64,000 nt of DNA from positions 24,908,660-24,972,659 of the forward strand of contig NC_049980.1 of the NCBI RefSeq assembly GCF_000003815.2, read 5' to 3'. Positions within the stretch are counted from its first letter, which is position 1. Each line of letters begins with the position of its first letter. This document shows positions 5,568-55,178 of the stretch, piece by piece. The position numbers and the translations under genes are program-made. Under the pieces are notes generated by a model. The model was not told the origin of the DNA. It did no database searches and saw nothing but the letters and a program-made list of their open reading frames with translations. This stretch comes from Branchiostoma floridae (taxonomy: Eukaryota; Chordata; Leptocardii; Amphioxiformes; Branchiostomatidae).

Positions 5568-8167
5568 TCAGGAGGAGCAATCAGACACACTGCTTGGCCA
5601 GTCGCACACGTGGTTGGCGTTGTTGAAGATGAGTCCAGCCGGACAGTTCATGGTGGTTGGAGTACTGTGGCCAGGGATGCAGACATAGTACTCCGTGCCA
5701 CACTGGCCGGTGGGACGGAAATAGTTGGAAGTCCTTCCTTCACACGTGAAGGCGTTGACAGCTGTAGGGGAGGGCACAGTATTTAATTTAACATTCAGTT
5801 TGACATGTCAAAAAGCACCAATTTGCACAGGTGGAACAAAATCACCCAATATGGGACAAGCCATGATGCTAACAAAGCAAACAGTAGAACTTTGCATCTA
5901 CACACCTTGTTGGCAGGTGTCTCCAGTGAATGCAGAGGTGCAGGTGCAGGTGTTGGGAGCTGTGCAGGTGCCGCCATTCTGGCACGGGACATCACAGTGA
6001 GGCTCACATCCAGGCACCTCCCAACTCCACTCACATCTGGGGAGGACAGACATTAATTCAGAATTTCGAAGTAGGCTTGATGGTGATTGTATATTTCTAA
6101 GCAAGCCCTCCAAACTGATCAGATGGAGTAAAAAAATGTTAAGCACAGACTTGGAATTTTGTGGTGTTTTGGGACAAAGATAATAGAGCTAAATCTATAA
6201 ATCACACCAAGATGACAAGTATGGGAGCTTCAGCAATGATGTAGAAATAACTTTGTAATATTTTAACCTCCTTGGTTCCTAACCAATGCCAGTATACTAC
6301 AGTATATGGTCAAACAGTGCCCCCTACCTGTCAGTGACAGTACTGTAGGCTGTACCTCCCTGTGCACAGTCTCTCAGGTAAAGAGGGTGGCCAGTTACGC
6401 ACTCATAGTACCTTCCACAGTCAGCTGGGTAGCGTCCAGGAGATCTATCTTGACAGGTGACTGGAGAGAACAGAAACACAATATGTTGGACGCTATAGAA
6501 GAGAATTTCACTGTCCTGTTTAAAGGGGATTTGGAAATAATTCACTGCTGAAAAATTTGCATTGCCATATCTCCCGTTCTATCACGAATTTATGTTTGAG
6601 TCATAGATAACCAGTATTTTTTGTTGCATATCAACAAGCTTAAGATCAGCCCATAGATGGATTTTTTGCAATGAAATACTGTTAATGGATTTCAGCAGTC
6701 ACCATAGAAACAGTGAACAAACAACTAGCACTAAAAGTTCAAGAATTACAGTATCAAAGTCTCAAAGTTAAACTGAATTAAGGAAGTTCATGGTGCACTG
6801 CACACTTACACTGCTGGCAGGTGTTTCCCTCCCAGCCGTCAGCACAGTGGCACCTGTAAGCTCCATCTGCTCGGACGCATGTGCCTCCATTTTGGCAGGG
6901 CGTGTCCACACAGTCACTTGTCACATCCACAGCATCTGTCAAAGGGAAGCAATCGTAACTGTTTATTATATGCAATTTGTATATCACAGGGAGTATCTCA
7001 TGATTGATGAAGATATGCCACTTATGCACTATTTTATTAATAAATCTGACTTTAAGTTCAAAATTCCACACATTGGAAAAATGCAGTACAAAAATACTGT
7101 GCAGGTGGACAATCATGGCAGCATCTTTCCTTGGTGCTGAAATGCCTGTCTGAGACATATGCCAGGGTTCAGAGGTCCCCATGTCTGTGCAGGTCTTGCA
7201 AAGCTGTAAGCTATATCATGTGTAAATGAGCCTGTTCTACTTACCACATTGATACTCTGCCCTTCTGGTCTCTCCAAAGATTGCGATGCGAGTTGTATCC
7301 CAGTCAATCACGTTGCCATGGTAATTACAGAATGCTGCCCAGTCCGCTCCTATTTCTTCTGGAGACAGCACGCGGTCCCAGAGGTTCACTTCCGACAGTT
7401 CTCCGATGAAAGCTTGCTCTGCTTTGAATCCTCCCTCGACTACATCCTGGTCCTGTCCCAGGATCCATGTGCCGCCTCTGCGCACTCTCCCTCCCACGTT
7501 AAACCCAGAGCCGGAAGCCGCCAGCACGCCATCTGCGTACAGCTGCCAAGCTCCATCACTGCTGCGCCAGGTTGTACATACGGTGTGCCACTCATTGTCC
7601 CAAACAGGTGGGTCCGCCATGTGTGTATGACTTTGTATGTATAACTGGAAAAAACAAAAACATGAGGTGTTTTATCAGCTGCAAAATCATGACATGTGAT
7701 TGATAAGATATTCACATGAAGGCATATTTCATTACAGAGAAAACTGGATTCTGGTGCCTGACTTTGGATACAAACAGGAATGTCATGAGAGATCTACATG
7801 TATCCTAATTATCTGGGCAACCAGCAAAACCCAGTTTGAATACATATCCACCATCAACAACCAATAATACAGGATAAATTAGATGGCAGAGGTTTAATGT
7901 CTGAAGAGATTTTACATTGCATACTTACTTTAAATCCACCATTCACAAACAGCAGAAGCTCGTTGTGATGTTCTTCCACTGCGTAGCTGACCAAGCTGAT
8001 TTGGTTGCTGGAGGACATGTCAGAGCGCATGTGCACACATAGAGTAAAGCTTGTCAAATCCTCAGACAATGTTGTTCCCATCCTGGCATAGTTACTAACG
8101 CCTCTTGGACCAGGGAAGATGATCTTCTGTGAGTCGCCTAGCACATCATTGCCATCATGTCCTGCAC
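5568..8167 (-). CDS. cassette 2: pentraxin, EGF, chitin-binding, EGF, terminal chitin-binding
   Basis: Exons 7929-8167 and 7245-7644 form the second pentraxin domain, with the same exon split and the same 400-nt second exon as the first. Exon 6810-6935 is EGF, 6328-6460 CBM14, 5906-6036 EGF; these are close copies of the EGF-CBM14-EGF set at 9570-10613. The last exon (5568-5761) is a more divergent CBM14 module ([30 protein letters not shown]) and ends the protein with SDCSS. Confidence 0.92.
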
Positions 8168-11100
8168 CTGCAAAAGATCACGTACGATTTTGACAACTGA
8201 CAAATGCTGAATTTACATGTGATAATGTAGGCCAGATTAGCAATCAGACAAGTCACCAAACAAAATAGACTTTACAGCTCAGAATCACAGTCTGCAAGTT
8301 TGAAAGAAATAGAAACTACAGTACAGTGCAAATTCACTTCTATGGCAGCACCTTTCCTTGGTGCTGAAATACCTGTCTAAGACATTTTCAGGAATGTTCA
8401 AGCATGTTCAAGAATCAAAAAAAAGAACAAAAGGGACTTTTTATCTATACACCTTGTTGGCAATCACATGAAATCACCTAGGCAATAAATTTCATTGCTT
8501 AAAGCTGCAGATTCCTTTTTACCTCACAGAGCATAACCATATATCTGTAACATTATGTATGACACTATACAGATAAGCTGTTAAGTATACTAATGAGCCT
8601 GTACTACTTACTGCACTGATACTCTGCCCTCCTGGTCTCTCCAAAGATTGCGGTGCTAGTGGTCTCCCAGTCAACCACGTTGCCATGGTAATTACAGAAT
8701 GCCGCCCAGTCTGCTCCTATTTCGGCTGGTGACAGCACGCGGTCCCAGAGGTTCACTTCTGACAGTTCTCCGATGAAAGCTTGCTCTGCTTTGAATCCTC
8801 CCCCGACTACATCCTGGTCCTGTCCCAGGATCCATGTGCCGCCTCTGCGCACTCTCCCTCCCACGTTAAAACCAGAGCCGGAAGCCGCCAGCACGCCGTC
8901 TGCGTACAGCTGCCAAGCTCCGTCACTGCTGCGCCAGGTTGTACATACGGTGTGCCACTCATTGTCCCAAATGGCAGGGTCCGCCATGTGCGTATGACTT
9001 TGTATATATAACTGGAAAAAAATGATGACATGAACAGGAATGTCATGATAGATCTGATTCGAACAATCTGGGCAATGAGTAAAACTTATTTTACATCAAT
9101 AACATTACATATGCAACATAAATAAGGCTTGATGTCTGAAATTATTGAATACTTACTTTAAATCCACCATTCACAAACAGGAGAAGTTCGTTGTGATGTT
9201 CTTCCACTGCGTAGCTGACCAAACTGATTTGGTTGCTGGAGGACATGTTGGAGCGCATGTGCACACATAGAGTAAAGCTTGTCAAGTCATCAGACAAGGT
9301 GGTCTCCATTTTGGCATAGTTATCAACACCTCTTGGACCAGGGAAGATGATTTTCTGTGCATTGCTGCCACCATCACCATCACCTAAAAAAGACAATGTG
9401 TGAATTTTCAAATCATCATACACTGAAAGCATGTGTGATAATGAGGCTCAGATTAGCAGTTAGCATAGTCATTAAAGCAGATAAATTCTTTAGCTTTAAG
9501 AATGACAATGTGGAAATTTACCCCCAAAAGGCACACAAACTGCACAAAAGAGACTTTTCATCCACACACCTTGCTGGCAGGTGTCTCCTGTAAATGCAGA
9601 GGTACAGGTGCAGGTGTTGGGAGCTGTGCAGGTGCCGCCATTCTGGCAAGGGACATCACAATGAGGCTCACATCCAGGCACCTCCCAACTCCACTCACAT
9701 CTGGGCAAGACAAACATTAATGTCACATTTTTTCAGGGAAATTGATGTTTATTTCACGTCTTGTGGTAATTTGGCTCCATAAAGCACTTTTAATAATCTT
9801 GAAGCTAATGATATTTGAAGGAAAATATACATACACTGTGATACAGAAAAGCAAATGACATTTGATGGTTTGTGATAGGTGCCTCTACAACCATGTACCA
9901 GTAAATGATTATGCAGCGCCCCCTACCTGTCTGTTACAGGACTGTAGGCTGTATTCCCTGGTGCACAGTCCCTCAGGTACAGAGGATGTCCAGTGACACA
10001 CTCATAGTATGACCCACAGTCAGCCGGATTCCTGTAGCGCCCAGGGGCTCTACCATCGCAGGTGACTGGAGAAAGGAAGAAATGCTTGAACAGTTATACA
10101 GGAATTCATGACTTTAGTTCCTTGATTGTTATGTAAACCTGTACCTGTCTGGCCAACCAAGCAACCATACACATGTTCTCACTCACTCACTCACTGTCCG
10201 GTTCTCTATACATTATGTATAGAACAGTGAGTGAGAACCGGACAGTGAGTGGTCATTGCAGTTGTCAGGATCATGAGAAATGAAGAGCCTTTTGGCAAAG
10301 GTTGACAAAAGAAAGGCTTCAATTAGCTTACCAGGAAATACATAGCTTGGGGTTAAACAATCATTGCCATTGTCCATTGTCATAGATTGCAATTTCTAAC
10401 GAATGCAATTTGTTAGAAATTATCAATATCACAACAAACAAGGCCTTTTTGCAAGGACAGATATGGCTGACAAAGCAAGTAAGTGATACATACACAGTTG
10501 GCAGGTGTTTCCCTCCCAGCCGTCAGCACAGCTGCACCTGTAAGCTCCGTCCTCCTGCATGCACGTGCCTCCATTTTGGCAGGGTGAGTCCACACAGTCA
10601 CTTGTCACATCCACTATCAAATGGGAATGAAAATATGAAAAATTAACAAAATGAAGGCTTAACAGCATGAACTAAAAAGCCTGCTGGTCACCAAAGAGCA
10701 GACTGACATTTTGCAGATATTGGAAAACAATGCTTTTTCCTTGGTTCTGAAATGGCTAGCTAAGACATGTTCCATGGTTGAGACTCAGATCACTATTCCT
10801 TTACAGATTCTAGAATTGCCAGTGTAGCCATTACAGAGGCGGCGGCAGCAAATTTCGCTTGGGGGGGCGACCCTTTACTGACAGAATTTTGCCGCACATG
10901 TAGTGCCGAAGGCACTACCTGTCGCGCCAGAGGCGCGACCATCCTAGGGGGGTCCGGGGGCATGCTCCCCCGGGAAAATTTGAAATCTTGACCCTCTAAA
11001 ACGCCATTTCCTGCGTTTTGACGGGCACATTTTGCTGCTAGACTAAGCTAACTTTGATGACAATTCTGTTAGAAAGACGCATGGTTTTAGCGAGGGCGAT

Positions 11101-14100
11101 GCCCCCAAAATATATTCACGATTTCAAGTGCGGAAGGTGCAAGCTGTAGCAAGGTTGGTCTGGGGAAATTTTAAAATCTGCACCCTCTGAAACCCCATTT
11201 TTTGTATTTTGAGGGACAAATTTTGCTGAGGGACTATGCTAAATCTAATGCCATTTTTGTCAAAGAAAGATGTTTGAGGGCGATGACCCAAGCCTCAACA
11301 AATTTTCACCATGTCGTTGTGAGCGCCGGAGGCACAATTAGTCATCCGCGGCTAGGGAGGTCCGGAGAAAATTTTGAAATCTTGACCGCCTAAAACGTCA
11401 TTTCCAGCATTTGAGGGCCACATTCTGCTTGTAAACTAAGCTAAGTACGATAGCAAAATTTCTATTAGTTTAAAAGTTTTTTGAGAGCGACGCTCCCGCA
11501 ACATATTGTCCTGCGCCGACATGGCCAAAGACGCGGGCCGTCACAAGGGACTCTGACGAAATTTTGAAATCAGGACTCTCTGAAACGTCATTTCTTGCGT
11601 TTTCAGGCATAAATTTTGCCGTTAGACTAGCTTGATTTAAAGATATTTCCATCATCAAAAAAATACACAAGGTTTCAGCTTGATTTTCTGGGGGGGCGAC
11701 GCCCCCCCAACATATTTTTCGGGGGGGCAGCCGCCCCCCTTGCCCCCCCGGTGCCGCCGCCACTGCATTACCATGGAAATGCTTTTATGCAAAAGCTTTT
11801 CTGCCACAATGGCATCTTTCCTTGGTACTGAAATGACTGTCTAAGTTCATGTCCCTGGGTTCTATACCTGTGCAGGTCCTGCCATCACCAGTGTAGCCAC
11901 TCGGACAGGAACAGTTGAAGCCTCCTACAGTGTTGGTGCATGCAGCTGAGGGAGCACAGTCGTGACTTCCTGACTGGCATTCATTAATGTCTGTTGATAG
12001 AATGGAGGAAAAAGTTGATAACCTATCCCTATTTGGTGTATAAATTCATGGCATTTGAAACATCTACATGTCAAAGATGGAAGCTCATCAACATACTTTT
12101 AAGCAAACTTGGTGAAAGAGTTATTTAGAAGAAAAGATTACCATTGATTACTAGAAAGGACAATAATTGATAAAACCTTTAGGGCTAAAGTTACAACGGT
12201 GTGTTATCCCAGAAGTGCAAATAAGAAGGTTTCTACAGTTGCTATTTTCATGAGGCAGACATATACCTTCACATGTTATTCCATCTCCAGTAAAGCCATT
12301 CCTGCATGTGCATGTGTACTGTCCCCCAACAGTAACACAGTCTGCATTGGAGTCACAGGAGTTGCTACCAGGGCGGCAGGCTGCAAGGTCTGCAACAAAA
12401 GTCCATAAAACAGATCAGTGCCTTGTTTGCTATAGACAATGTTTCTGCTTTTGTTGTTGTGGGATGTTGAAAACACTCATAATTTTCATATCATCTTGTT
12501 ACCTTGTACAACTAACTGTCTCTTTCACACTGTGCTGCCGCAGCTAGACAAACTTGTTTGCAAACATCAAGTGTTATTATTCTTGCATTGTTCTGAGTGC
12601 TTTTTTTGCATCTTCCAACTTACCTGTGCACGTCTTCCCATCTCCGCTGTACCCTTCCTCACATTTACAGGTGAACCCTCCGATCACATTGGTACAGATG
12701 CCATGCTGCTGGTCACAGTTGTGGGAGCCAGTTGTGCACTCATTGATGTCTGTGAATGGAAAACAGTGATAAATCATTGTCATTCTCAACAGGGTGGTAA
12801 ATTTTGGTATGTGGAGAAATAATAAAGTAACAGGAAACAATAAAACACAACTCCACAAATTAGAGAAAAGAAAAGAAATTCTTCACCTAGTCTAGGTTTA
12901 TGGAGCTTGGGAAAAAACTTATTCAAACTTTAATATTCTTATTGAAAACAGTGCACCATAGTACAACTTCATACAACATACAGTACAACATACCTGTGCA
13001 TGTCTGGCCATTACCCTGGTACCCTGGCATGCATGCACACGTAAAGCTGCCGGGAGTGTTGGTGCAGTACGCATCAGGGTGACAGCTGTGGGCTCCTGAG
13101 GCACACTCATCAATATCTGAGGCAAAGAAATATCATCCATATTGTTTATAATAGCATTGAAATTGTCAGAAAGGTACATTATTAAATTTTTCACATGGAG
13201 TAAATACATTGTAACCACTGTTGTAACTTGTCTTACCTGTGCATCCATTGCCATTTGTAACAAATCCACCGGGGCAGGTGCAGGTGTAGCTTCCAACTGT
13301 GTTTGTACAGGTCATGTCACCATGGCAACCATGGGTACCTGAAGAACACTCATCTATGTCTGAAGGAAATGATCGGGGGGGAAAAAAACGTAAAAATGTT
13401 GTGGAATACAATATCAAGAAATCACATTTCTTGTTCTGTGAAATGATACTCTATGGTACTTTAGTTTTGATTTTAGAAAATGGGACGGACAACTGTGCCC
13501 TACCTGTGCAGCTCTGTCCATCCCCTCCAAAACCATCCTGGCAGGTACAGGTGTAACTTCCATCAGTGTTGGTGCAGGTGGCATTGGTATGGCAACTGTG
13601 TGATCCCTGCAGACACTCATTTACATCTGTGTAAAAAAAAAAGAGGAGAAAATAAAATATCAACAGTACTATACAATGAAAGAATCTAATTCACTACTGT
13701 GATGACATGGTGCCTGTGTAGCAGAGTTTCAGATGAGAAAAATCAACAGCATGCTACTGCAGGGCTTCAGACGGTAAAGAAATATGCATACTTTATTAGA
13801 ACTAGTGTGGAGCCCTTAGTTGCTACATGTGTGAGGAAACTACATGTAACGTTACATGTATATGAAGCAGTGCCAGATGCAAAATTCATCTTTAAGACTG
13901 GCATCATCTCTTCACAGCTAGATACATTATAAACAAAAAGGCCTGTCTATGTGTAACAAACACACTTCACCTGTGCATGTTTGGCCATCTCCATCATAGC
14001 CACCCAAGCAGGTACAGGTGAAACTTCCATCTGTGTTAGAGCATGCGGCGTTGGCATGGCAACTGTGTGATCCCTGGGAGCACTCATCCACATCTGTGTG

Positions 14101-17100
14101 GAGAAACAATGGGTGACAGAGGTTATTATAATGGACTGCTGTAAATGTTGACTTTCTGTTTCTTGCGATAACATCTTCACTGGAAACTTGAAACCACTGC
14201 AAAAGGCTTGTTCTGTCTTCTGCCCACCTACCCCTTGTGTCAACTATTGCAAACATGCCACTTTCTCTCTGATGTGAAATTGGATCCCCAAGAACTTAAT
14301 GAAACAAATGCATGTAACTGCATGTCGCATATCTTTAGATTCCAACTACCTCACAGTCCAGTAAGAAATTCCAACGGAAATGTGCCATGTCATACACACC
14401 TTCATCACAGTCAGGTCCAGTCCAGCCTGCTGCACATGTGCACACGTACCCACCACTGTTGTCGTTAGCACAGGCACCATGGTGACATGGGCTGTTCTGA
14501 CAGGCATCCACAACTACAGGCAACAGTTTTAATAAAGAGGGGATTTACAACCTCCTTGATCTAACATTTCATCTTTGAACAACTTAGTGTGTCATGAACA
14601 AAGTAACTTACTCACTGAAAGAAGATAAAGGAAGATATCATAAAATTATAACCAGCAAAACAGCAATAAATCTTAACTCTAGAATTTGTCTATCACAAAA
14701 AATACTTATGCCAATCATACTCACATTCACAGTATGACCCATTGCCCTGGTAGCCACTGTTGCAGTGACATCCTTGGACTCCATTCTGGATCCCACAGAA
14801 AGCGTTCTGATCACACCCGACCTCCGTGCACTGGATGTTGTTCTTGCTGACGCACTCGCAGCGGCGGTTACAACCCTCTCCCCAGGTTTCTCCAACCTTT
14901 AGAAAAAAATATCACAGCAAAACATCAAGAATCATCATCATCATCATCATAACTTGTTGTGCCATTAATGAAGACAGTTCAAGAATAGCACTGATAGTCG
15001 CACTTTTCTTTTATCAGAAAGTCATGCACTTACTGCATAGTAGTGTCCACCACGAGTACAGCCACACTCTTGCCTAGTAACACAGTTCCCTCCACTCAGG
15101 ACGTAGCCTCCATCACACTCGCACCCCTCCACACAGGTGCGGTTACAGTACTGGGGCGCTGACACGTCTGTACAGGTGGCGGGACAGGCGCTGGCACAGG
15201 AGGTGTAGTGACTATTGGTGGGGCAGGAGAGCGCTGGAAAGGAAATCTCAGGTCAGATGATGACTCAGGATGCTTTACAGATGGACATTAATGGTTTTAA
15301 TGTTTTGCAGTCTTACCATTTTGCACTCTAAAGTAGCTGTTTTGCACACCATTGCATTAGTCATGGAGTTAGGTGGCAGGGATAAGGTTCAAGTAGCATC
15401 GTAAGTACATATTGCAGTTACATGCAGTTTTAAGACCACACAAACTCAAACTTACGGCAGAGGGTGGCATTCCTCCATGTTCCGATGTTGATGCCAGCTT
15501 CGGCACAGGAGTCGGTATAGGCCTCCAGGTTGTGACACAGGGAATCCATGTCTCCGTTCTGGGCACACAAGTCGTACATGCAAGTCTCAACAGTACCCTA
15601 TGAGGGAAAAGAAGTTTAAACATTGTAAACTCCTGCATTAAAGGCAAGAAAATGGAAACAACCCTAAACGATTGGGTAGATATGAACGTGTGATGGATAG
15701 TATTCAGCACCAAGGACAGATCTGTTTATAGACGTGTGGATGGCGTTCAGCACCAAGGGCAGACTTGTTCATTGTAAGTCTTGTTGCGGACCTTGTGTGA
15801 AAGAAGTTGGGGGAAGTCTGACCAACTGGCTTTCCAGTACAAACATGTACATGTAACTCACACTAACTGTAACATTAGCCAGAGCTTCCTGTAAGTGTAA
15901 GCAAAGTACATATCGTTAGGCAGACGGTAAACCGATGTACAAAGTAAATTCTTTTTCTAAGATGTCCTAGATTTGAGAAGATACAGGCAGTAAGAGGGTA
16001 CATACCTCAGGGTTGAGGGCTGAGTAGCAGGGAGCAAACACGCTGTTTGGGTCGTTCAGGATCCCGCACAGTTCCGACACCGTCTGCTGGAGGGCGTCGC
16101 TGCACTGCGTGATGGGTTCTGGGTTCTCGTTACACCTGTAAGGATTTCAAATATGTCACCGTCAAATCGTTGTAGCAAGGCAAAAATGGACTTTCATCTT
16201 TGAAATTCTTTGATTAATCTTTGCTTTCGCACCACAAGCCACATCGCAAGCAAGAAGTTTACTTATTTATGTTCTGTGCAGCTAGATAGGGTCAAACTTT
16301 GCTTCTTGGCTGTGGTTTTCGAAGGTACTGTGGTTAGAATACCTTCTTGATTTGCGATATCTTGCGAAATGCATTAACGTGCTCATGCCATGGTAAAAAT
16401 TACTTACTGGTCGCCTTCAATCGCAACCCGCCAACTGTTGCCAAACGTCACTACGTCACCAGCCAGGGTGCCGCCGGCTGTCAGGTATTCGTCGTTGACG
16501 TCGCCGTTGTAGTTCCCACACAGTCCGCAGAGGGCGCCCTGGTACAGGTCAGGCAGGATGACCTCGGCGCGATGACTCCCGTCAAACGACACCTTGAGTC
16601 CAAAGCCTGTCTCTATGGTAACGTAGCGACCGACGAACTTGACTGTTAGACCAGCCCTCGGCTCGGCAGGAAGGGTCGTGATCAGTTGGTCAATCTGGGA
16701 AGAAGGAATATGTTTAACTAACGAATGAAGACGTCTCTGATGTATAAAGCATTGACTTCAGCACGGTGCGTCTCTTTTACTTTTTCTAACTAGGAAGATA
16801 GTGTTCATATCACAGTATCCTTCCTCAGGGTGACGCTGTTACTAGTCTAGCTCGGCGCCTGACAAAGAACAAAACATACCAAGGTCATGCGCATCTGTCG
16901 TACTTACATAGACGACCTTATTCTTCTCCACCACAATGGTGTGATTGTAGACCTCCACGGTGACCTGTGTGACGAAGCTGACGCGCGAGTTGCCGCGGTT
17001 CTCGTTCCTGGTCTCGATGTTGAAGTACGGCAGTGTGTTGTTTTGACAGTTCCGCGCTAGGGTGTACGTGCAGGCTCCCTGGAAGTGGTGCGTGCGCCCG

Positions 17101-20100
17101 TCAAACGTGATGTAATGGGGATCTCCAAAGGCAGCGCACGTGCCCCTTGCTGCAATCAAAAAACAAAGAAGAAATTAGAACTATCACAAAGAGCGTGTTT
17201 TAAGCTAAGTCTATGCTAGTTTGCTTCTTTAACGTGGTGGTTTTCGTCTAATTTGTAAAATCATATCGAAATGATCAAAAGGAAAATTGATCGCCCTCAC
17301 TATTATCATTAATAAGAAAATGAGAGTTACTCACTCCAGCAGGTCTTTCCGTCTCCGGTGAAGCCAGGTTTACACTCGCACTTGTACGACCCGTGAGTGT
17401 TCACACACACCGCGTCGGGATCACAGTCGTCCAGTCCCAGCTCACACTCATCTACGTCATGGTTCACGTCAGCGAGATCTTCGTCAATAAGACCGTCACC
17501 GTCGTCATCTCTGGGGATTAGAATATTTATGTTGATGCTCTGTGGTTTAGTTTCCGATAGACACTATGTCAAGCTTCCTAACCTTCTTACTAACATTGCA
17601 TCTCGCCCTAACTTGCGACATTTTTTTCGTCAACGTTCCTTTTTGTTTGGAAAAGGATAAAACGCAAAACCATCGTGTTCCAGATATTTACGCCCAAAAG
17701 GAGACTACTCTAGTAAAAAGCAACAAGCTAAGATCATGGTATTATCAGAAGAAGACAAAATCGCCGGAAAGGATAAGCTTGTTCATTACATGTGTTATAA
17801 ATTGCATGTCAAGATTAGAAAAGAAAAACTTTGATCATAGACATCGTTTGTGTAACGCCTATTAGACTTATTGGACACAAGGTCTATTATCAGAAAAATT
17901 AACGTCATCACAAGTCTTAGTAGCTCACATTCCATTCAGTAGTTCCTCGTCCACCAGCTGGTCACAGTCGTTGTCGACGCCGTCGCCAACCATTGGTTCC
18001 GTGACATCACATCCTCCGGAGATGCTGGCCAATCGCAGACCCCCGGGAAACCCCACGGAGTCGTAGGAGGAGAAGCCGTAGTAGAAGAGGGAGAAGGTGA
18101 CAATGGCGGAGGTGTGCTTGATCTTGTGTGTCCCCGTGGTGCCGATGTGAAGCTGCGTGGCGGACAGATCGGTGTCCGGAATGGGAGTCCACGTCGTGGA
18201 GGAAGACAGCGGGTTGCCGTCGTACGTCAGGCCCGACGTTTGTGACGTCTTGATGACAATGTTGACGTAGCTGGTGTAGGCCGTGGACAGCGCGTCGACC
18301 GTGGCGAAGGTGTAGTCGGCGGCGAACTGCTCCACCGGCGGCAGGTACATCATGAAGGGATCGGTGGTGATGCCGTCCGAGTCCTGCCCCTTGCTGTACT
18401 GCAGCACCATGATTGGCTGCGATGAGGTGATGGTCTTGTACGTGCTGGACGAGAGGTCCAGCTCCCAGAAGTCACCAGCGTCCAGCGAGCGAGGTGGTAG
18501 ACCCGTGACGTTGACAGTGGTGCCGTTTCTGGCGGCCACTAGTCGGAAGATGTCGCCTGCTCGCCGCACGGCCAGCGGGACCGTCACGAAGCGCTGTCCC
18601 CAGGTGTTGACGGGCGGGACGTGTTCCACCAGGTGATCGCACGCGGCGAACTGGTTGGGCACCTTGTCACACCGCACGCCTGACATGACGGACACCGGCT
18701 TGTCCGATAGGATGCGGGTGCCTGTGAGGTCCGACTGGTACCTGCCCTGAAACTGCACAGCCTCTAGGCGGTCCAGTGTGAACGTTATGACGCTCCCGGA
18801 ATAGTAGTCCCTGCCGTCATGGTACACTCTCCCCTTCAAAGTGACGCTGACCGAGGTGCCGTCTTCAACACCGAAGATGGCGAATTCGGACGGATACTCC
18901 CGGAAAGCAGGATTGTAGGAAGCTACGAAATACTCCCTGCCCAGTACGTCGACGGGAAGACCCAAGAAGCCGTCCGTGGTGTGCCTCTCCTTGTTCACGC
19001 CGTACAGGATGATCTCCCGGTCGGCGGTGACGAGGACGCCCTTCTGAGCCCGCTCGTGTCCGGTCAGCATGACGGAGCGCGGCAGGGTGACCACCTGCAC
19101 AGCTGCGTCTGTCACGACCAGCTGCTGCGTGTAGCTGGCACCTGGAGCGGTGATGGTGACGTTGGCGGGCTCTGTGCTCGCGCTGGTGATGAACAGCTCG
19201 AGTTCGCTGAACCCGTGGTTCTGCAGGAAGCCGACCACAAACTCTGTTCCTCTGTTGTCTGGAGACGTGAGCACTGACAAGGGACAACGTCAACATTTAA
19301 GTACCGATTCTAAGTTTGGATCATCCGATCCGTAAAACGCCAAGTTGTGGATAGATAACCATAGAAGAGAACCTCAAGGACACTTTTTTTGGCACAAACA
19401 CATACACGCGTGCGCGTCTTCGCACACTTGTCCGTCGTCAAATCCCTTGAAATGAACAAATGTTTTCCCCATCTTGCAGATAGAATGTAAGTTGATACAA
19501 TTTCTCTCAGTGTTTTCTTCAGAGTAATACTGATAAAGAGTTTTAAGAAATAAGAATACTGTTAAGTTACCTTCTTCACAGTTGGTGCCTTTCCACCCAG
19601 GAGCGCACAGACATGCGTACTCGCCTCTCCCGTTCAGACACGTCCCGCCATTTCGGCACGGACTGCTGAGACACTCGTTCACGTCGGGCGGGTCTGTTAC
19701 AACTGTTGCAAAAGCAAAAGCTATATATCAATACAAACCCATTTATAAGAATGACCCTGTTCGCTATTCTCCAAGCACAGGTTGATTCGCGGAGATATAG
19801 TAGTAGTCGGGAAATTGAGAGACTACTACTATATCTCCGCGAATCACGCCTCTGCTTGGGGAATATGTAGTGTCTACTACTACACTGTCTAGTGATATGC
19901 AGGGTAGCAAGTTTATTTGTTCCAGTAGCAGGGTACATTTTTACAGGGGAGATTGTTAGCCCTTCCCTTTAAAAACGTGCCCGAGGCACCTTCTCGAATA
20001 CGGGACCCTCAGTTTATGTCCCTTCCGAGAGACCAGTGTAGCCCCAACCGAGATCCCCTTCCCTAAATTACCCTCCCCAGTTGAGTAAGCTACAGAGACA

Positions 20101-21249
20101 TGATTTATATATGAATCGCCCTGTAGGAACAGAAAATGGGTTCAGGCCGAAAAGCTTTGGAGTGTTTTTAACATACCACAAAGAGTGGCCTATTAACGTG
20201 ATCATGGCGTGACCAGACTATTCATACATTCAGGTACAAAAGTTTGCCTATTTCAAGACGGTTGCTTTCTTCCCGTACCCATGTCAGTTTTCACGCACCC
20301 TTGTTCCAGCAAAAGTTCCTAAAATACAGCTTATTCTAGATAAACAGCTTTAATCGCAAGTGTATCGATCAAGACCTATGTAACAACTGTGCAAGTATAT
20401 AAGGAAACTATTGTAAAACTAATGAGCTTTTATTCTGTTTAAAAGCTTATTGGTAAAACACAAACTCTTGTCTTCACGTTACGCGACTTTTCGTGTCCAA
20501 ATACATGTAACACCAACTTTATGTTGTTCGACTTCAGCGCGCATCACACTTTATGTCTCAACTTACTCGTTCAAGCGTACCAGCTTACAAAGCTAAAAAA
20601 TATGACAATGTTTGATCCGGAGAAAAATAAGGGTACAAACTTTCCAAAATAATCTTTTCCTGACATTTTCCGCTCGGCTTTCTCTTCAGCACAGATAGCA
20701 AAATCTAGTAACGTTGTCCAAGATATAACGTTATATGAATTCGTCCCATGATATCAAATACTTGTAGCACTACAAAACCCATAGTACAAAAGAAAAGAAC
20801 AGTCGGTGTGTTTACTTAAACCCCAGGCAGATTTGCCAGTGGCATAAGATAGTATCAAAGCTGGCCAAGGAGTATAGACGACCAGTTAAAGAGCATTAGG
20901 ACAGGTGGAGGAAGCTATCCCATATACAGGACATTTCCTTGTGTGGAACAATGGACACAGTAGTGAAAGGAGGCGCCAGGGGCAAATATTAGAAAATGAC
21001 ACTATTTCACTCCTTTCGCCATATTGCGTCCATTGTTCTACACAAGGAAATGTCCAGTATATGGGTTAGCTTCCTCCACCTGTCCGAGTGACCAGCTGGC
21101 TCCCTTTGGCCGGCGACACTCCTTGGCCAGCTTTGCCACTGGTAAATCTGCCAGGAGATTAGTATTTACTCACCCTGTGCCTGCACCGACGCCAGCACGT
21201 AAACCACCAGGAATGATGTCACGCCCGTCAGCCATGGACCACGCGCCAT
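5568..21249 (-). CDS. secreted multidomain protein: EGF, IgGFc-binding, VWD-C8-TIL, EGF array, chitin-binding and pentraxin modules
   Basis: Complete gene, ATG at 21249, TGA at 5568-5570. Coding exons: 21174-21249, 19571-19702, 17929-19273, 17335-17510, 16908-17149, 16408-16694, 16006-16135, 15456-15597, 15034-15233, 14725-14896, 14400-14513, 13971-14093, 13504-13626, 13237-13359, 12994-13116, 12624-12749, 12267-12389, 11868-11990, 10494-10613, 9927-10065, 9570-9700, 9157-9383, 8612-9011, 7929-8167, 7245-7644, 6810-6935, 6328-6460, 5906-6036, 5568-5761. All junctions are GT-AG and in phase; the sum is 6120 nt, 2039 residues. Domain order: signal peptide (about 1-25), EGF, IgGFc-binding domain with acidic metal-binding repeat (about 70-535), EGF-CA, VWD, C8, TIL, EGFs (about 910-1333), chitin-binding, EGF, two pentraxin domains (about 1424-1845), EGF, chitin-binding, EGF, chitin-binding. 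No transmembrane segment is seen. The role as an extracellular gel or pattern-recognition protein is inferred. FCGBP, zonadhesin and fibropellin share only parts of the architecture. Confidence 0.92.
8612..10613 (-). CDS. cassette 1: EGF, chitin-binding, EGF, pentraxin
   Basis: Exon 10494-10613 is an EGF module. Exon 9927-10065 is a chitin-binding type 2 (CBM14) module with six cysteines and the DCGSYYECV motif. Exon 9570-9700 is an EGF module with the unusual start [11 protein letters not shown]. Exons 9157-9383 and 8612-9011 form a pentraxin domain: TLCVHM and WHTVCTTW supply the conserved disulfide, GQDQD resembles the calcium-binding loop, and [17 protein letters not shown] is the family signature. 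Confidence 0.92.
10188..10251. repeat. perfect 19-bp inverted repeat (hairpin) in an intron
   Basis: Arms at 10188-10206 and 10233-10251 are exact reverse complements (CACTCACTGTCCGGTTCTC on the left). The spacer itself contains the palindrome TATACATTATGTATA. It lies in the intron before the first CBM14 exon. Confidence 0.8.
10847..11762. mobile_element. non-autonomous DNA element with TIRs, TSD and internal tandem subunits
   Basis: The termini are inverted repeats starting CAGAGGCGGCGGCA on the left and CAGTGGCGGCGGCA on the right (read inward), flanked on both sides by CATTA, a probable 5-bp target duplication. Inside, a unit of about 190-200 bp recurs four times, starting near 10976, 11168, 11370 and 11558. 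Each unit opens with AAATTTTGAAATCT-like sequence, then a 'CTCTGAAACGYCATTT' block and a 'TTTTGCT-AGACTA' block. No transposase frame is seen. The superfamily is unassigned. Confidence 0.75.
11868..14513 (-). CDS. array of eight single-exon EGF modules
   Basis: Eight exons, each one EGF-like module and each phase 1 at both ends: 14400-14513 (Notch-type), then seven modules of 123 nt (126 nt for 12624-12749). Six of the seven start with D-[VI]-[DN]-EC, the calcium-binding EGF signature; the one at 12267-12389 starts DLAAC and lacks the Glu, so it may have lost calcium binding. Identical size and phase point to tandem exon duplication. The array probably forms a rigid spacer. Confidence 0.92.
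14725..15233 (-). CDS. TIL and TILa/VWC-like modules with EGF-like tail
   Basis: Exon 15034-15233 encodes a trypsin-inhibitor-like cysteine-rich module ([18 protein letters not shown], then [16 protein letters not shown] and CVTRQECGC). Exon 14725-14896 adds a [13 protein letters not shown] segment and an EGF-like C-terminal part ([14 protein letters not shown]), the arrangement found in zonadhesin-type proteins. The TIL fold here is probably structural, since no inhibitory loop can be assigned. Confidence 0.85.
15456..16135 (-). CDS. C8 domain (two exons)
   Basis: Exons 16006-16135 and 15456-15597 encode a cysteine-rich segment with C-x3-L-C-ILND, FAPCYS and ETCMYDLC patterns and a terminal NIGTWRN-TLC. 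This matches the C8 module that follows VWD domains. Confidence 0.88.
16408..17149 (-). CDS. von Willebrand factor type D domain (two exons)
   Basis: Exons 16908-17149 and 16408-16694 encode one VWD domain at about residues 577-752. Its start carries [12 protein letters not shown], including the GDPH motif (585-588) at which several VWD proteins cleave themselves. The second exon carries [10 protein letters not shown] (713-722), the CxxC signature of VWD domains. The domain is directly followed by C8 and TIL modules, as in mucins, zonadhesin and FCGBP. Confidence 0.93.
17335..17510 (-). CDS. acidic metal-binding repeat plus calcium-binding EGF exon
   Basis: The exon continues the acidic repeat of the previous exon ([14 protein letters not shown]) and then encodes a calcium-binding-type EGF module starting DVDEC and ending [11 protein letters not shown]. 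Splitting the repeat across an intron with phase 2 is consistent with both flanking frames. Confidence 0.88.
17929..19273 (-). CDS. IgGFc-binding domain in a single large exon
   Basis: The 1345-nt exon encodes residues about 70-517. It begins with a segment typical of the IgGFc-binding N-terminal family ([11 protein letters not shown]) and includes family-like stretches such as [10 protein letters not shown] and a conserved [12 protein letters not shown] segment. In FCGBP-type proteins this domain lies at the N terminus ahead of VWD units, and that order is kept here. The exon ends with an acidic motif ([14 protein letters not shown]) resembling the MopE-type metal-binding repeat. Whether it binds immunoglobulin-like ligands is doubtful, because invertebrates lack IgG; the name is only a family label. 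The exon has high GC and long antisense open frames that I treat as shadows. Confidence 0.9.
19571..19702 (-). CDS. first EGF-like module exon
   Basis: The 132-nt exon is phase 1 at both ends and encodes one six-cysteine EGF module (pattern NEC-SSPC-NGGTC-YACLC-GW-G-NC). The NGGTC and GW-G-NC motifs are typical of Notch-like EGF repeats. Confidence 0.9.
19765..19864. mobile_element. short MITE-like inverted repeat in intron 1
   Basis: A perfect 25-bp inverted pair lies at 19784-19808 and 19821-19845 (core GATTCGCGGAGATATAG). It extends outward imperfectly through CCAAGCA on both sides to about 48 bp per arm, with a 12-bp loop. Confidence 0.7.
20824..21153. mobile_element. foldback element, about 330 bp, next to the signal-peptide exon
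   Basis: Two arms of about 150 bp (20824-20977 and 21003-21153) are imperfect reverse complements. Both carry GACAGGTGGAGGAAGCT, GGACATTTCCTTGTGT and CAATGGAC. A related single-arm copy lies at 21975-22071. No coding capacity. Confidence 0.75.
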
Positions 21250-21857: not shown

Positions 21858-21910
21858 CTTGACAGGTCTGGAACTTAAGACGCGCTGTAAAACTGCAGTC
21901 TTACTGCTTT
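21858..21910 (-). promoter_or_regulatory. non-coding first exon (5' UTR) of the large gene
   Basis: A GTAAGA donor follows position 21858 on the minus strand, and a matching acceptor (TGTCCAG) lies just before 21259, ten bases upstream of the ATG at 21249. The 5' boundary near 21910 is inferred from the TATA box about 30 bases upstream. Only the splice signals are seen directly. Confidence 0.6.
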
Positions 21911-21933
21911 ATGGCGCACTCCAGGAGGAAGGA

Positions 21934-21941
21934 TATTTATA
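21934..21941 (-). promoter_or_regulatory. TATA box of the large multidomain gene
   Basis: The minus strand reads TATAAATA within GGGTATAAATATCC, about 80 bases upstream of the inferred 5' UTR donor. This is a strong match to the TATA consensus, and its spacing puts the start site near 21910. Confidence 0.65.
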
Positions 21942-21974
21942 CCCTCCTGGGACAGCCAACGCCTTTGTAAGCAA

Positions 21975-22071
21975 ACGGACAGGTGGGCGGAGCTAATCCT
22001 TATACGGGACATTTCCTCGTATAGATCAATGGACACAATTGTGAAAGGAAACGTCATAGGTAAATATTAGA
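21975..22071 (+). repeat. single-arm relative of the intron-1 foldback, just upstream of the TATA box
   Basis: The order of blocks (GGACAGGTGG, GGAGCTAA, GGGACATTTCC, CAATGGACACA, GTGAAAGGA, AAATATTAG) matches one arm of the element at 20824-21153 in the same order. It ends about 35 bases from the TATA box, so it forms the proximal promoter of the large gene. Confidence 0.65.
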
Positions 22072-24163: not shown

Positions 24164-27100
24164 TTAAACTATTAAAACGGTCAACAGACAAGTCAAGACT
24201 AAAACCATCTCAATTTTTTTGCTTTCCGGAGCGCCCCCGGTGATTTTGTCATTGACGCACACGTCATAATCGTCATGTCCAACAGCAATGATAGAACAGA
24301 CATGGTCTACCCAGCAGTTATTATCACATGTTTCGGTAGGATCATAGCTTAGAGTGTTAAACTGGTGATATTTGCGAAACTGTGACACGTCTGGGCCGGT
24401 GAAGGAGGAGGCCAGGCGGTGTAGAGAGTCCGTTCCCCCGTCGGGCAGTCCGAACGTGACGGTGAGCGAGTAGGCCTCCTGCCACACGGGCCTGCCGCTC
24501 AGGTTGGCCTCTGTCAGGTTGGTGTAGTATTGAACCACATCCTGTTGTTGGATATAGGAAAGGAAACATGTGAATAGGTTTGCCTAGTTTTACAATGATT
24601 GTTATGGTCAATATGGTGTAAAATAAAATGTATATAATTTCCACTATATTCTCCACCAGAGACTTCTGTGCGCATGCGCCTCAAAAATTAAACATGTAGA
24701 ATACTTAACCAGAGAAGTTGGCTGGGTAAAGGCATTTAGGGCCTCATGAGACTAGGTCTCCTGGGTTTCACCGTAAATGCTGGTCCGGCTCTTCTTTTAG
24801 TTTTCGACAAGGAACCAGAAAAACAACGTCCGTCGCCCATGTCCAAGTTCAGAACGTGTTGCCCCCCAGTCAGAACGTGTCTTTCCCGAAGGCCTGGCCT
24901 TCTACGATTCTCTAATATCCCGATTATCTGAGCTTTACGCACTTGCCATAAACCCATTCGATAAAGTTTATTAAGTCGTTATTGGTTTAATTTACCTTAA
25001 TCTGTAGCGTCTGCCTGTCGTACTTGTACAGCCTGACTCCGGGGTTGTTGGCGCCGAACCCGCTGATGCCGGGCAGCGTGGTCCTCCACGGGGTCACGGC
25101 AGGACACAGGAACATCGAGCTCACAGCTGAGCCTGGAGCAAAGAGGAAAGTTCAGAAAGTTGGCTTAAAGAAATGCAAAGACCGTTGCTAGGCACCCACC
25201 ATACCCAACGCGGGGTTATTTTGGGGAGCCACCACAAGGCCCTAAGGGGCAATATCAGGTCGACTCGTCGTACAAGATTCATACAAGGGCACAGTAAGCG
25301 TGTCGTAATTTTGATGAATGAATGAAGACCTTTATTGTACATTCATACCCACTGGGTTTAGTACAGGTCACAACAAATGATACAACATGATATAATGATA
25401 CAATGAATCTACACTACTCAAGGATCGTATTCTACTGCGTACATTCGGCTTCTTCTCGTTTCTTTGTGATATTGAAAATGTAAGAACAGATATGCTTTAT
25501 AAGTAAAGGCTTGTCTAGACTCATAAGGAATATAAATTTGTCTATATTACTTAGTTGTATGAAGTGGGGGAACATGGATTCTATTAGTCTGTAGAGTTCA
25601 GCTCTCTCTTTCTTGTACAAACTACATTCTACTACAAAATGATGTTCGTCTTCTAACTTATCTAGATTGCAGTATCTACATATTCGTTGTTCTAGAGGAG
25701 TGCGGTTATGTCTTCCGGTTTCGATGTGTAATTTGTGGCAACTGACTCGTAGTTTTGTGACGGCCGTCCTGTGCCGAATATTGTCAATATCCAGGTATTG
25801 TTCCACATTATAAGTGGACTTGAACAGTCTGTAAGACCTCAATTTGTTTTTAGCGGATCCACCTTTGTTGTCATTGTGTATCTCTCTTAGAAAAGTTTGA
25901 AAATAAATGTCTTTCAGACGCTGATTGATAGAATTGATAATTTGAGACGAATTTGTATTGTGCTGTAGAGGACAATGCCATACATAACCATAGCCGCATT
26001 CCTCCAGTGACTGGCGAACTCCTGACGCCCAACACTTGGCTCCAGCCTTGTCTAAATCTATCTGGCAAGAAAGAGCGTCTGACTGGAAACTGTCTGCTGG
26101 TACTTTCTGGCGAAGTCTAATTAAGTGTTTAATAGCATTTAGGGAGGCTTCCAAATGAATGGGGAACCTCCCTAACTCGGCTCTAGCGGCGAGGCCACTT
26201 GTGGATCTTGGCACGTGTAGGGTTTGCTTACAGAATTTTAGATGTATTGTTTCAATAGGACAGGATTTGGGGCTTTTAACAGAACCCCAGATTTCCGATC
26301 CATAGAGAATTATGGGCTTAACACATGTATCAAAAAGTTTGTTTCTGACAGACAAAGGAGCATCGGCTTTGTCTAGGGATTGATTTATCCCGAATAAAGC
26401 TTTCAGACCCTTACTGTACAAGTGTTTGTTGTTCGCCTTGAAAGTACCCGCAGAATTGACAACAATACCTAAATAACAATAGTTTGTCACTATTTCAACA
26501 GGATTGTTCTTATACATGAAATACACATCTTTTGGTATACGACCACCCTTAGTGAAAACAATTATTTTTGTTTTCCTAAGGTTCACATTTAGGTGCCATG
26601 TTTGACAGTATTCTTCTAGTCTATTCAAAGAACATTGTAGACCTTGTTTTTATTCAGAGAAAAGAACTAAATCATCTGCATACAATAGACAAGAGACACG
26701 CTTACTGTACATAGTTGGGGGGTTACACATATCATTATCAAAGACAGATGTAATATCACTTAAAAATAAATTGAATAAAGTTGGGCTTAAATTACAACCC
26801 TGTCTGACACCACAGTTTGTGACAAAAGGTTCAGTCAGACCTTGACTGTATTTCACACGATTTGTAGTTTTTGAATACATGTCTTTGATAGTTCGAAGAA
26901 AGTTGCCCTGTATACCTAACTTGTTTAATTTGTAAAGGAGGCCATTTCTCCAGACGGAGTCGAACGCTTTACTAAAATCTACGAAACATGCAAAGAGACG
27001 GGAATTTTTACTTAGATACTTGCTAACTAATGTACTTAACACGAAAAGATTATCTGTAGTTCTAAAGTTCTTCCTAAACCCTGCCTGATGGGGTTTGAAA

Positions 27101-29933
27101 AGACTATTGTTTTCGGCATAACTAACTAAGCGATTGTTTAATATAGAGGAGAATAGTTTACCTAAGCAGCTAATTATGGAAATTCCGCGGTAGTTGTCTG
27201 GGAGAGATGGGTCGCCGGATTTGTGAATTGGAACAATGTTTGATGTGTACACGGGAGTACATTCAAATTCAAAACCATGCTTGATGCACTATTGTGCAGA
27301 TTCCCATGATGTTGAAAGTTTTTATCTATTCATCTTGCAATCAACCATGATGAAATTCTCACCGTCATCATCGTAGAAGACACGGAAACTGTCCGTGTGG
27401 TGGTGACCGAAGAACTGCCCTGCGATGACTGACGAGTGCTTCCGAATGAGTTCGTTGTAGCGCTCGTTAAAGTTCGGGTACATCCAGTACTGGCTTCTCT
27501 TTAGCTCGAAAAAGCCGGGTGGCAGGTGTCCGACAATAAAAACCTATGAATTCAATGGTACACAGAAAAGTCAATGTGTGGAACAGGTAAAGACTAAACA
27601 AACGAGCGCTGTGTAAACTGAATCATGTCACAGTTCATCTACTAATATCCATCAATGAAATAACAATAATACCATTTCTGAGTTTGTTTGGGCGTCGCCG
27701 AGCACTCTGTCCAGCCAGGCGAAGTGTCCCCCTGGATCCTCCATGTCTTTTGTCACCAGATTAGATTTGTAGTGGAGGTTGGTGTTCACGCTAACAATGC
27801 GCAGGTGAGGGGCAGCGGACACCGCGTAGTAACCACCTGTAGATACAGGTCATGTGTTCTTAGAACTTCAGATAGCTGCGTTTGAACATTGGCAGGCAAA
27901 TAGCCGTTTTGACCCCAAGGGCATCTTTACTAGATATCATAAGTTAAGGAAGCCCAACTAGAGTCACCGTGGCTACTTTGCAAGCTGTTAAGTATGTACT
28001 AGAATCAGTTTATCCGGATCAGTTTATTCGTTTAATATGACACACCAAGTTGTTGAAACCCAGTTGTAAGTAGCAGTTTCGCAATAATCTGTTTACATTT
28101 TTGTGACAAAACAGTTTTGTTTGCCCCCTCCCCTCTCGCCAGTTATGTACCTTGCTTGAAGGCGCTGTTGGCCCCGTCGTCATCCATCCAGTCCCGCCAG
28201 AACCCGGCCACCGCGTCGTAGATGTCACTTCCATTGGGCGGTAACTGGTTCTTAGGGTGGTAGTCATGGTTACCAAGGGCTGCATACACCCTCTTGGTCG
28301 GAAAGACCTCCTTTAGCAGTGACGTCAGGTTACCGATGATGTTGATGACAACCTGCTGTCCGAGCTCTTCGTTAGGCACGTGCGGGGTGTCATCCCTGAG
28401 ACGTTAGGACACAGTGCAAGATACAACTGGTATATGAATTTTGGCGATTTTCATCGTCCTGACTTGATATACCTCCTAGAATACTTTGCTTATTTTTTCA
28501 GTATCATAATCTGAATCTTTACGATATTCTGAACATTTATGATACGATAATCTGAGCATATATGAAATGATGAGCAAATCACACCACACCTACTCATGTT
28601 TTTATTTGATCTTTGGAGAAGTACGGGACAGCCTAAGACTTGTAGCTAGGGCCAGCAGAGAATCTATTCAGCAGCCAAGGCAGGTCTTCCCGAAGAATTT
28701 AGACAAGAACACCGATGATTTGTCATGCAGGGAGAGTTTGCCGGACAAGATTTCGGACAAGCCTTGGCTGCCGAACAGATTCTCTGTCGGCCCTGGGTAA
28801 AGTCAGGTTTCCAGGGTATAGGCTTCCGTCACTCGATGACAAAATCTCTTGCAACATCGTCAAACCATCCTCACCCTGTCCACAGTATAAAGTCGGGGTT
28901 GGCTTCTATCTGCCTCATGGCGTACACCGAGGAGTTGATAAGTGCCCAGGGGGCGTCACACAGGTAGTCTCCCCACACCCCCGGGGAGCCGTCCTGCTGC
29001 CCGCCCGACACGTGGCACATCTCGCCTGGGACCCCGGCGGTGGAGTAGCGGGGATCATAGTGGAAATCTGTCACCTGCCAGAACCAACCTGGACGCATGG
29101 GACGGACAGGATAAGTTCAGAGGGACATTAGGTAGTAAAATGATGACAGGCTGGCATATACAAATTATGAATGTGACCTTTGGACCGATCAAGTACATTG
29201 CGAGAGCGAATTACGTATGTACAAAAGGCATATGGATCAGTCGCTTGCCAGAACCATTCTGGAAGCGCTGGATGGACAGGACAAGTTCAGAGGGACATTG
29301 TCGGTAAAATGAAAACGATGGCAGGTCAGCATATACACATTATGAATGTGACCTTTGGACCGATCAAGTGCATTGTGAGAGCGAATTACGTGTGTGCAAA
29401 AGGCTTAGAGAACAGTCGCTTTCCTTGTACGATACCATGCCAGGAAAATAAGAGGACGTGGCCTCCGGGTAGAAAATAAAATCAGGAAAGCTAGAACCTG
29501 CAACAACACTCACACGCCCTCGCATGATGCACAGCAAACTGTGCGACTTGGCAAACAAACAGGTCCAGCAGATCTATACAGGGTTATGGAGGGCTAGGAA
29601 ACATAACTTGGACTTGGACCAATATACATCTCCTCCATCGGTCTTCTTTTTAATCCAACAGAGTAGTACATGCTCATTACAACAGTCACCCGACCGTTAC
29701 TTGTGAATACATATATACTAGTCATATAAAATCACAGAGCAGCACTCTTACACACACTAGTTAACGGTGGGTATAACGTTATGCACCTCCCCTCCCAACA
29801 TCTACTCTGACAATCGATTTATTGTATTGCCATTGGACAGTAGCAGGTTATGATATCTACCGTGACCTGTGTACCCACCGTCCTCAGTAGCTACACTTTG
29901 GGTCCATACAAGCACCACAAACAGGAGAAACAT
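24164..29933 (-). CDS. Smpdl3: acid sphingomyelinase-like phosphodiesterase, SMPDL3 type
   Basis: Complete gene of seven coding exons: 29879-29933, 28875-29088, 28151-28395, 27673-27836, 27363-27543, 24996-25132, 24164-24541. Frames join exactly to 1374 nt, 457 residues, the usual family length. A signal peptide (1-16) is followed by the calcineurin-type metallophosphoesterase core: D26-x-H28, G90-D91, G131-N-H-D134, G231-H232 and G272-H-H-H275, the full set of di-metal ligands. There is no saposin domain, which separates it from acid sphingomyelinase proper. A hydrophobic C-terminal tail (VLVLTCLLTVLIV) suggests a GPI signal as in SMPDL3B. The family hydrolyses phosphodiester or nucleotide substrates outside the cell or in lysosomes; the substrate here is unknown. 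Intron 5 (25133-27362) carries a LINE. The assignment to SMPDL3A or SMPDL3B is uncertain. Confidence 0.93.
25314..27290 (-). mobile_element. 5'-truncated non-LTR retrotransposon (LINE) in intron 5 of the phosphodiesterase gene
   Basis: The minus strand encodes a reverse transcriptase from about 27285: PIHKSGD, NYRGIS, the AFDSVW block, GVRQGCNLSPTLF and the catalytic YADDLV. A single in-frame TAA at 26650-26652 interrupts the frame just after the YADD block. The same frame continues to 25432, through a KTKIIVF segment and a C-terminal Cys/His cluster (CRYCNLD-EDEHHFVVEC). The 3' end has AATAAA and a TTCATTCATTCATC tail near 25314-25335, as in CR1/L2/Rex-like elements. The endonuclease and 5' part are missing. 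It lies in the same orientation as the host gene. Confidence 0.88.
28647..28797. mobile_element. MITE-like inverted repeat, about 150 bp, in intron 2 of the phosphodiesterase gene
   Basis: Arms at 28647-28695 and 28743-28797 are imperfect reverse complements sharing AGGGCC-RCAGAGAATCT and CAGCCAAGGC blocks. Internal sequence is short and non-coding. Confidence 0.65.
29069..29440. repeat. tandem duplication of about 175 bp including the exon 2 splice acceptor
   Basis: Two copies are visible. They share GCCAGAACCA, AAGTTCAGAGGGACATT, TTATGAATGTGACCTTTGG, ACCGATCAAGT and GAGAGCGAATTACGT. The left copy contains the real acceptor and first bases of exon 2 (29077-29088); the right copy holds a degraded version near 29248-29265. 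Confidence 0.75.
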
Positions 29934-48701: not shown

Positions 48702-48854
48702 NNNNNNNNNNNNNNNNNNNNNNNNNNNNNNNNNNNNNNNNNNNNNNNNNNNNNNNNNNNNNNNNNNNNNNNNNNNNNNNNNNNNNNNNNNNNNNNNNNN
48801 NNNNNNNNNNNNNNNNNNNNNNNNNNNNNNNNNNNNNNNNNNNNNNNNNNNNNN
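48702..48854. other. assembly gap
   Basis: A run of 153 N. Apparent reading frames through it are meaningless. Confidence 1.
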
Positions 48855-55049: not shown

Positions 55050-55178
55050 TACGGAACCGTAAGAAAAAATTGCTGCGACTTCTCGACGATAAAATCCGTG
55101 CGATTGCTGGTATCCTTCACGGTGCACGCGCTGAGAATGTTTCTCTCGGAATGCCTGTGCCTCTGATGATGTCGAAGG

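Follow-up and report, generated by a model that had tools for sequence, protein, structure and literature searches.

An FCGBP-related lancelet gene that joins a single D assembly to CBM14 and pentraxin modules

The window, the whole 64,000-nucleotide stretch of DNA that was analysed, contains a Branchiostoma gene on the minus strand. Joining the raw strand at canonical splice sites produced a reading of 29 exons and 2,039 residues with no internal stops, running from an ATG at 21249 to a TGA at 5568. All 28 introns are GT-AG and their phases are mutually compatible. A preliminary description of the same DNA had reported a 2039-residue reading composed of IgGFc-binding, VWD-C8-TIL, EGF, CBM14 and twin pentraxin modules. 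The independent rebuild returned the same start, end and length, Pfam confirmed the modules, and a TILa domain, three CBM14 domains and 14 EGF-like modules were recognized in addition. Coordinates are collected in Table 1.

Table 1. Features of the gene, followed by other features of the window
Feature	Position	Strand	Basis
Exon 1: start codon and predicted signal peptide	21174..21249	-	hydropathy
Exon 2: N-terminal EGF	19571..19702	-	Pfam
Exon 3: IgGFc_binding (Pfam residues 170-469) and start of Asp-rich linker	17929..19273	-	E 2.7e-79
Exon 4: Asp-rich linker and calcium-binding EGF	17335..17510	-	Pfam (EGF)
Asp-rich linker, residues 500-535, across intron 3	17459..17984	-	resembles DxDxDG-type metal-binding motif
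Exons 5-10: single D assembly, VWD-C8-TIL-TILa	14725..17149	-	Pfam
GDPH motif, predicted self-cleavage site, residues 585-588	17115..17126	-	Cys581 and Gln600 also present
Exons 11-19: nine EGF modules, one phase 1-1 exon each	10494..14513	-	Pfam, phases
Exons 20-21: first CBM14 and EGF	9570..10065	-	Pfam, cysteine pattern
Exons 22-23: pentraxin 1	8612..9383	-	Pfam E 1.8e-38
Exons 24-25: pentraxin 2	7245..8167	-	Pfam E 4.9e-38
Exon 26: EGF, duplicate of exon 19	6810..6935	-	106/120 aligned bases identical
Exons 27-28: second CBM14 and EGF, duplicate of exons 20-21	5906..6460	-	107/133 and 125/131 aligned bases identical
Exon 29: third CBM14 and stop codon	5568..5761	-	Pfam
Upstream match to P0001 residues 1-51	21860..22012	-	86% match, below coding part
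Intron 18	10614..11867	-	by eye
Acid sphingomyelinase C-terminal ORF	24164..24583	-	Pfam ASMase_C, E 2.2e-24
Retroelement-like ORF pair	25432..27288	-	RVT_1, E 1.3e-30
N run	48702..48854		
Helix-loop-helix ORF	54375..55226	-	Pfam HLH, E 1.3e-14
N run	58609..58708		

Phase 1 predominates among the introns (19, with five of phase 0 and four of phase 2), and 11 of the 27 internal exons have 1-1 symmetry, the rest being asymmetric. Module groups are entered and left in phase 1, and phases 0 and 2 are confined to their interiors. The groups so defined are IgGFc with its linker and the next EGF, the D assembly, each other EGF, CBM14 with its EGF, and each pentraxin; the rule requires IgGFc and the following EGF to be taken together, since singly they are 1-2 and 2-1. 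The most hydrophobic 19-residue windows begin at residues 6-10. Past residue 40 mean hydropathy does not exceed 1.41, and a simple hydropathy scan of the product revealed no second signal-peptide-like stretch there. The short upstream match to P0001 may be a first exon, either alternative or 5' untranslated.

From the N-terminus the product consists of a predicted signal peptide, an EGF, IgGFc_binding, an Asp-rich linker, a calcium-binding EGF, VWD-C8-TIL-TILa and nine EGFs, followed by CBM14, EGF, two pentraxins, EGF, CBM14, EGF and CBM14. The Pfam matches are well beyond chance level: besides the E values in Table 1 they include VWD (8.7e-40), C8 (3.8e-20), TIL (1.8e-13), TILa (1.6e-7) and CBM_14 (2.2e-9 for one stretch, 2.9e-18 for two). 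The three CBM14 (peritrophin-A) domains, at about residues 1334-1390, 1888-1942 and 1976-2039, have six cysteines each, as do all 14 EGF-like modules as delimited here. No Ig, sushi, VWA or, at E 0.001, cystine-knot family was matched by Pfam in the product. The content of S, T and P peaks at 43% in 60-residue windows, and no PTS region was found. The preliminary description spoke of mucin-type gel modules, and this wording did not hold. Because there is one D assembly, no PTS region and no cystine-knot match, the domain content indicates that the product is not a gel-forming mucin.

The core of the protein resembles FCGBP. An AlphaFold2 model of the IgGFc exon is almost wholly beta with a mean pLDDT of 84.9. 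To our knowledge lancelets have no IgG. The top-scoring solved chains for the D assembly are those of FCGBP, and human FCGBP likewise has IgGFc_binding ahead of a VWD-C8-TIL unit that bears the GDPH and CGLCG motifs. Only one VWD stretch is present, as against the tandem D-assembly array by which the FCGBP family is recognized, and the product is therefore named FCGBP-related rather than FCGBP. In human FCGBP there are 12 D assemblies plus an isolated VWD (PMC10880436), in contrast to one D assembly with an EGF array, CBM14 and pentraxins in the lancelet product.

In FCGBP, self-cleavage requires the Asp and His of the motif and is assisted by a Gln, and a cysteine retains the first strand after cleavage (PMC10880436). 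The lancelet motif is Gly585-Asp586-Pro587-His588 with Cys581 and Gln600, and Gln600 lies 14 residues past the motif Asp, the same spacing as Q4094 from D4080 in FCGBP D10. Because GDPH, Cys581 and Gln600 match these published requirements, self-cleavage of the D assembly is predicted. At least one copy of GDPH was found in 15 of 16 relatives scanned, P0044 being the one without. The Asp-rich linker scored 13.9 bits against Cu-binding_MopE, below the 27-bit Pfam cut-off.

To place the gene, three protein searches were carried out, with about 8,000 candidates scored in each. The matches listed (the best 120 of 1325, 69 of 69 and the best 120 of 576) comprise 299 distinct proteins. When these were compared by phmmer with domains taken from the window, IgGFc was present in 63 and pentraxin in 60. 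Seven of the 299 listed have both. The same seven combine CBM14 with pentraxin, and all are from Branchiostoma. IgGFc and CBM14 occur together in ten, all lancelet by entry name, although in P0009 and P0044 the CBM14 was detected by phmmer only and is absent from Pfam at E 0.001. The core (residues 26-968) is identical to that of B. floridae RefSeq P0003, 'neurogenic locus notch homolog protein 1-like isoform X2', which is 99.7% identical to the window over 1,806 aligned residues. Near the pentraxins P0003 has a different pre-pentraxin linker and lacks EGF exon 14 and one pentraxin. Identity is 98.5% over 2,020 residues for P0001 (B. floridae x japonicum assembly), 91.8% over 1,462 for P0009 (B. 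lanceolatum) and 88.0% over 1,803 for P0005 (B. belcheri).

The lancelet records P0001-P0007 (P0005-P0007 being isoforms from a single B. belcheri locus) likewise arrange the module types in this order within one chain, with varying numbers of EGFs and pentraxins. Modules have been added in P0002, P0005 and P0007, P0002 gaining a C-type lectin and a WxxW module. P0009 has two CBM14 domains by phmmer and no pentraxin, so either the pentraxin head is dispensable or the P0009 model is incomplete. These eight records are named uncharacterized, notch-like, chitinase or FCGBP. The preliminary description knew of no named protein with this order. That is right as to names, but the order itself is already present in public models. 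Among the 299 listed the order is rare, and the seven lancelet records that carry it have generic or unfitting names. Public gene models thus already include the architecture, though under no fitting name, and every single module is known. Among the hits listed by searches of the openly licensed PMC literature (15 of 341 and 10 of 27 in two of them), no description of the protein, or of FCGBP joined to a pentraxin, was found; the excerpted text of one paper mentions FCGBP once, in the gut of Ciona savignyi (PMC10094616).

The two pentraxin domains were compared with human CRP. Their best solved match is neuronal pentraxin 2, and the Cys36-Cys97 pair is present in both. The tandem pair resembles neuronal pentraxins, CRP, SAP and PTX3 in its family match and conserved cysteine pair. 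It differs from them in lying inside a mosaic and in the partial loss of the CRP calcium and choline residues. We take the calcium ligand positions of CRP to be 60, 61, 138, 139, 140, 147 and 150. N61, Q139, D140, Q150 and F66 are retained, and E138 is changed to D. Conversely, D60 is replaced by H, E147 by K and T76 by Y, and position 81, where gap placement differs between MAFFT and HMMER, is non-acidic in place of E81. Five of the seven calcium positions are therefore retained or conservatively changed, with 60 and 147 lost in both domains. D60 is uncommon in a set of 76 pentraxin domains that includes eight from seven fish or hemichordate proteins: six have D at this position and 26 have H. 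In the alignment Thr takes the place of the His of the pentraxin signature. Since part of the calcium and phosphocholine residues has been lost, the ligand probably differs from that of CRP, and phosphocholine binding of the CRP type is unlikely.

Pentraxin number varies among orthologous models, from none (P0009) through one (P0003-P0007) and two (the window, P0001) to three (P0002). Over 200 codons the window's copies, PTX1 and PTX2, have a dS of 0.235 and a dN of 0.032, a low ratio of 0.134. The second pentraxin exons, 23 and 25, differ at 25 of 400 bases. These differences are concentrated at both ends (6, 2, 1, 1, 2, 5 and 7 per successive 57 bases), leaving the middle near-identical. In the flanking introns 73-82% of aligned bases pair, with long gaps. 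PTX1 and PTX2 differ at 13 sites. The single pentraxins of P0003 and P0004, which are identical to each other, agree with PTX1 at seven of the first eight sites (10-135, the exception being site 21) and with PTX2 at all five last sites (161-185). The one-pentraxin version is thus likely a PTX1/PTX2 hybrid, such as unequal crossing-over within exons 23/25 would leave. The alternative is assembly collapse in both P0003 and P0004. In a pentraxin tree the copies of P0002 cluster with B. belcheri P0005 (99/98), and those of the window cluster with P0001, P0003 and P0004 (94/96), pairing by position (93/95, 93/89). This grouping suggests that the copies either multiplied separately in two lineages or were homogenised within each. 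VCBP copy number varies among B. floridae haplotypes (PMC2632668).

The IgGFc-EGF-VWD-C8-TIL-TILa-EGF block recurs in lancelet paralogues that carry other modules. It is joined to a C-type lectin and a second D assembly in P0019, CBM14-EGF-CBM14 in P0024, an N-terminal F5/8 type C domain in P0014, VWA in P0026, EGF arrays in P0044, and DUF4440 in P0008 and P0010, one of which has fibronectin type II as well. The D assembly is present three times in P0011. Because it is doubled in P0010, and IgGFc is doubled in P0008, the core is imperfectly fixed. In a tree of the core, in which 7 of 14 inner branches are starred, P0014, P0026, P0008 and P0010 join the orthologue group (93/99). The gene belongs to a lancelet family with a common FCGBP-type core and changing modules.

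In the search that listed all of its 69 matches, 45 are lancelet proteins with a precomputed pentraxin domain. Pfam scans of nine of these 45 and of P0114 gave, among other partners, ZP, VWA, F5/8C, C-type lectin, Kringle, haem peroxidase, Kunitz/WAP and an adhesion-GPCR body; pentraxin also appears in the domain legend of a 2008 amphioxus GPCR survey (PMC2246102). In P0114 (three pentraxins), P0148 (one) and P0153 (precomputed Pfam) a lancelet pentraxin is joined to an animal haem peroxidase, a fusion of a recognition-type domain with an oxidant-making type of enzyme. Rapid exon shuffling in lancelets, biased to 1-1 phase, has been published (PMC4284660), and the locus is a good case of it rather than a new process.

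Several known systems offer partial likenesses. Ciona Ci-GFM1, a gel-forming mucin of the gut membrane, is likewise a mosaic in which a chitin-binding domain accompanies D assemblies, and its host is a chordate whose gut barrier is chitinous. Ci-GFM1 is, however, composed of D1, D2, D'D3, D4, VWC and a cystine knot, and the excerpted text of its source mentions neither IgGFc nor pentraxin (PMC6109156). VCBPs of lancelets and Ciona likewise have a chitin-binding domain and a recognition domain in one protein. Their recognition part is two Ig V-type domains, whereas the lancelet product has no Ig match. By analogy the product, which is not a VCBP, may work in a VCBP-like way. VCBP-C is a protochordate precedent for a protein that is chitin-docked and binds bacteria (PMC4757023). 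SVEP1 (named as in PMC9953650) unites EGF and pentraxin in one extracellular protein. It has sushi and VWA domains, neither of which is matched in the lancelet product. We know of no IgGFc, D assembly or CBM14 in SVEP1.

In solved structures the best matches of the third CBM14 are chitinase chains, in their C-terminal part. The gut of B. floridae has a membrane of chitin nanofibres that separates ingested microbes from the epithelium (PMC6109156), and its genome has more than 250 ORFs with chitin-binding domains, although the section reporting them names no protein of this architecture (PMC2632668). The preliminary description proposed a mucus-tethered recognition molecule. Tethered recognition is still the best hypothesis, with chitin a likelier anchor than gel modules because the gut membrane is chitinous (PMC6109156). 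We suggest, with a probability of about 0.5, that the gene encodes an FCGBP-related secreted capture molecule, docked on chitin and mucus, whose pentraxins bind microbes. The protein would be secreted from the pharyngeal or gut lining. Its D assembly would cleave itself between Asp586 and Pro587, the pieces being held by a disulfide of Cys581. By analogy, the three CBM14 domains would attach the protein to the gut's chitinous membrane. Its FCGBP-type core would be positioned with mucus, the EGF array would act as a spacer, and the pentraxins, facing the lumen, would bind some ligand on microbial surfaces, though not phosphocholine as CRP does. Two processes would change the family: phase 1-1 exon cassettes would be exchanged, and the near-identical pentraxin exons would cross over unequally.

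A structural or adhesive protein, whose VWD, EGF and CBM14 modules would serve as cross-linkers of mucus, cuticle or the gut's chitin membrane while its pentraxins bind host matrix instead of microbes, is a rather unlikely alternative. In limpets, adhesive proteins with VWD, EGF and C-type lectin-like modules are similar to IgGFc-binding protein and zonadhesin (PMC7333891). Ci-GFM1, from the Ciona gut membrane, offers a second parallel (PMC6109156), and the partial loss of CRP ligand residues agrees with such a role. The absence of a cystine-knot match and a PTS region argues against it, and a variable pentraxin number beside a steady core fits recognition better than a scaffold.

Improbable is a soluble opsonin, or a zonadhesin-like protein of the egg envelope or gametes, with CBM14 directed at non-self chitin. 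Some of the D-assembly relatives listed bear the name zonadhesin, and a soluble immune effector that binds fungi and bacteria through separate domains has been described (PMC6414549), but an FCGBP-type core with three CBM14 domains suggests anchorage at a surface. An annotation artefact, in which a neighboring FCGBP-like gene and a pentraxin/CBM14 gene were fused by the reading across the 1.25-kb, by-eye repeat-like intron between exons 18 and 19, is very improbable, because every phase fits, hydropathy shows no further signal-peptide-like stretch past residue 40, and the join recurs in seven lancelet records (three being isoforms from a single locus).

A docked capture molecule would bear on the question of how an antibody-less chordate defends a filter-feeding gut. 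Since a vertebrate-type mucus core, modules of chitin-binding type and pentraxins co-occur in one protein where the gut is lined with chitin, the published idea that links a chitin barrier with the mucus barriers that came later gains a concrete testable molecule. The locus also displays, exon by exon, how lancelets may exchange domains: its cassettes are symmetric, its tandem copies are nearly identical, and one relative is likely the product of a crossover. We further propose, tentatively and with more doubt than conviction, that a constant FCGBP-type anchor, with interchangeable recognition modules brought in by phase 1-1 cassettes (pentraxin, CBM14, C-type lectin, F5/8C, VWA), makes up a lancelet mucosal recognition repertoire, in which unequal crossing-over within pentraxin exons would render pentraxin number and sequence polymorphic among haplotypes. 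If so, this would be an immune system with a constant anchor and variable heads but no antibodies. It can be tested whether pentraxin number differs among individuals and alters binding.

Some other features of the window were recorded. Intron 18 has about 0.9 kb of repeat-like sequence as judged by eye, followed by a 56-base decayed copy of the sequence after exon 18. Upstream of the gene and on the same strand is an ORF corresponding to the C-terminal region of acid sphingomyelinase. In the retroelement-like pair a reverse transcriptase ORF is followed by a 405-residue ORF with no Pfam match at E 0.01. By eye the helix-loop-helix ORF looks like what we take to be an Id-type gene.
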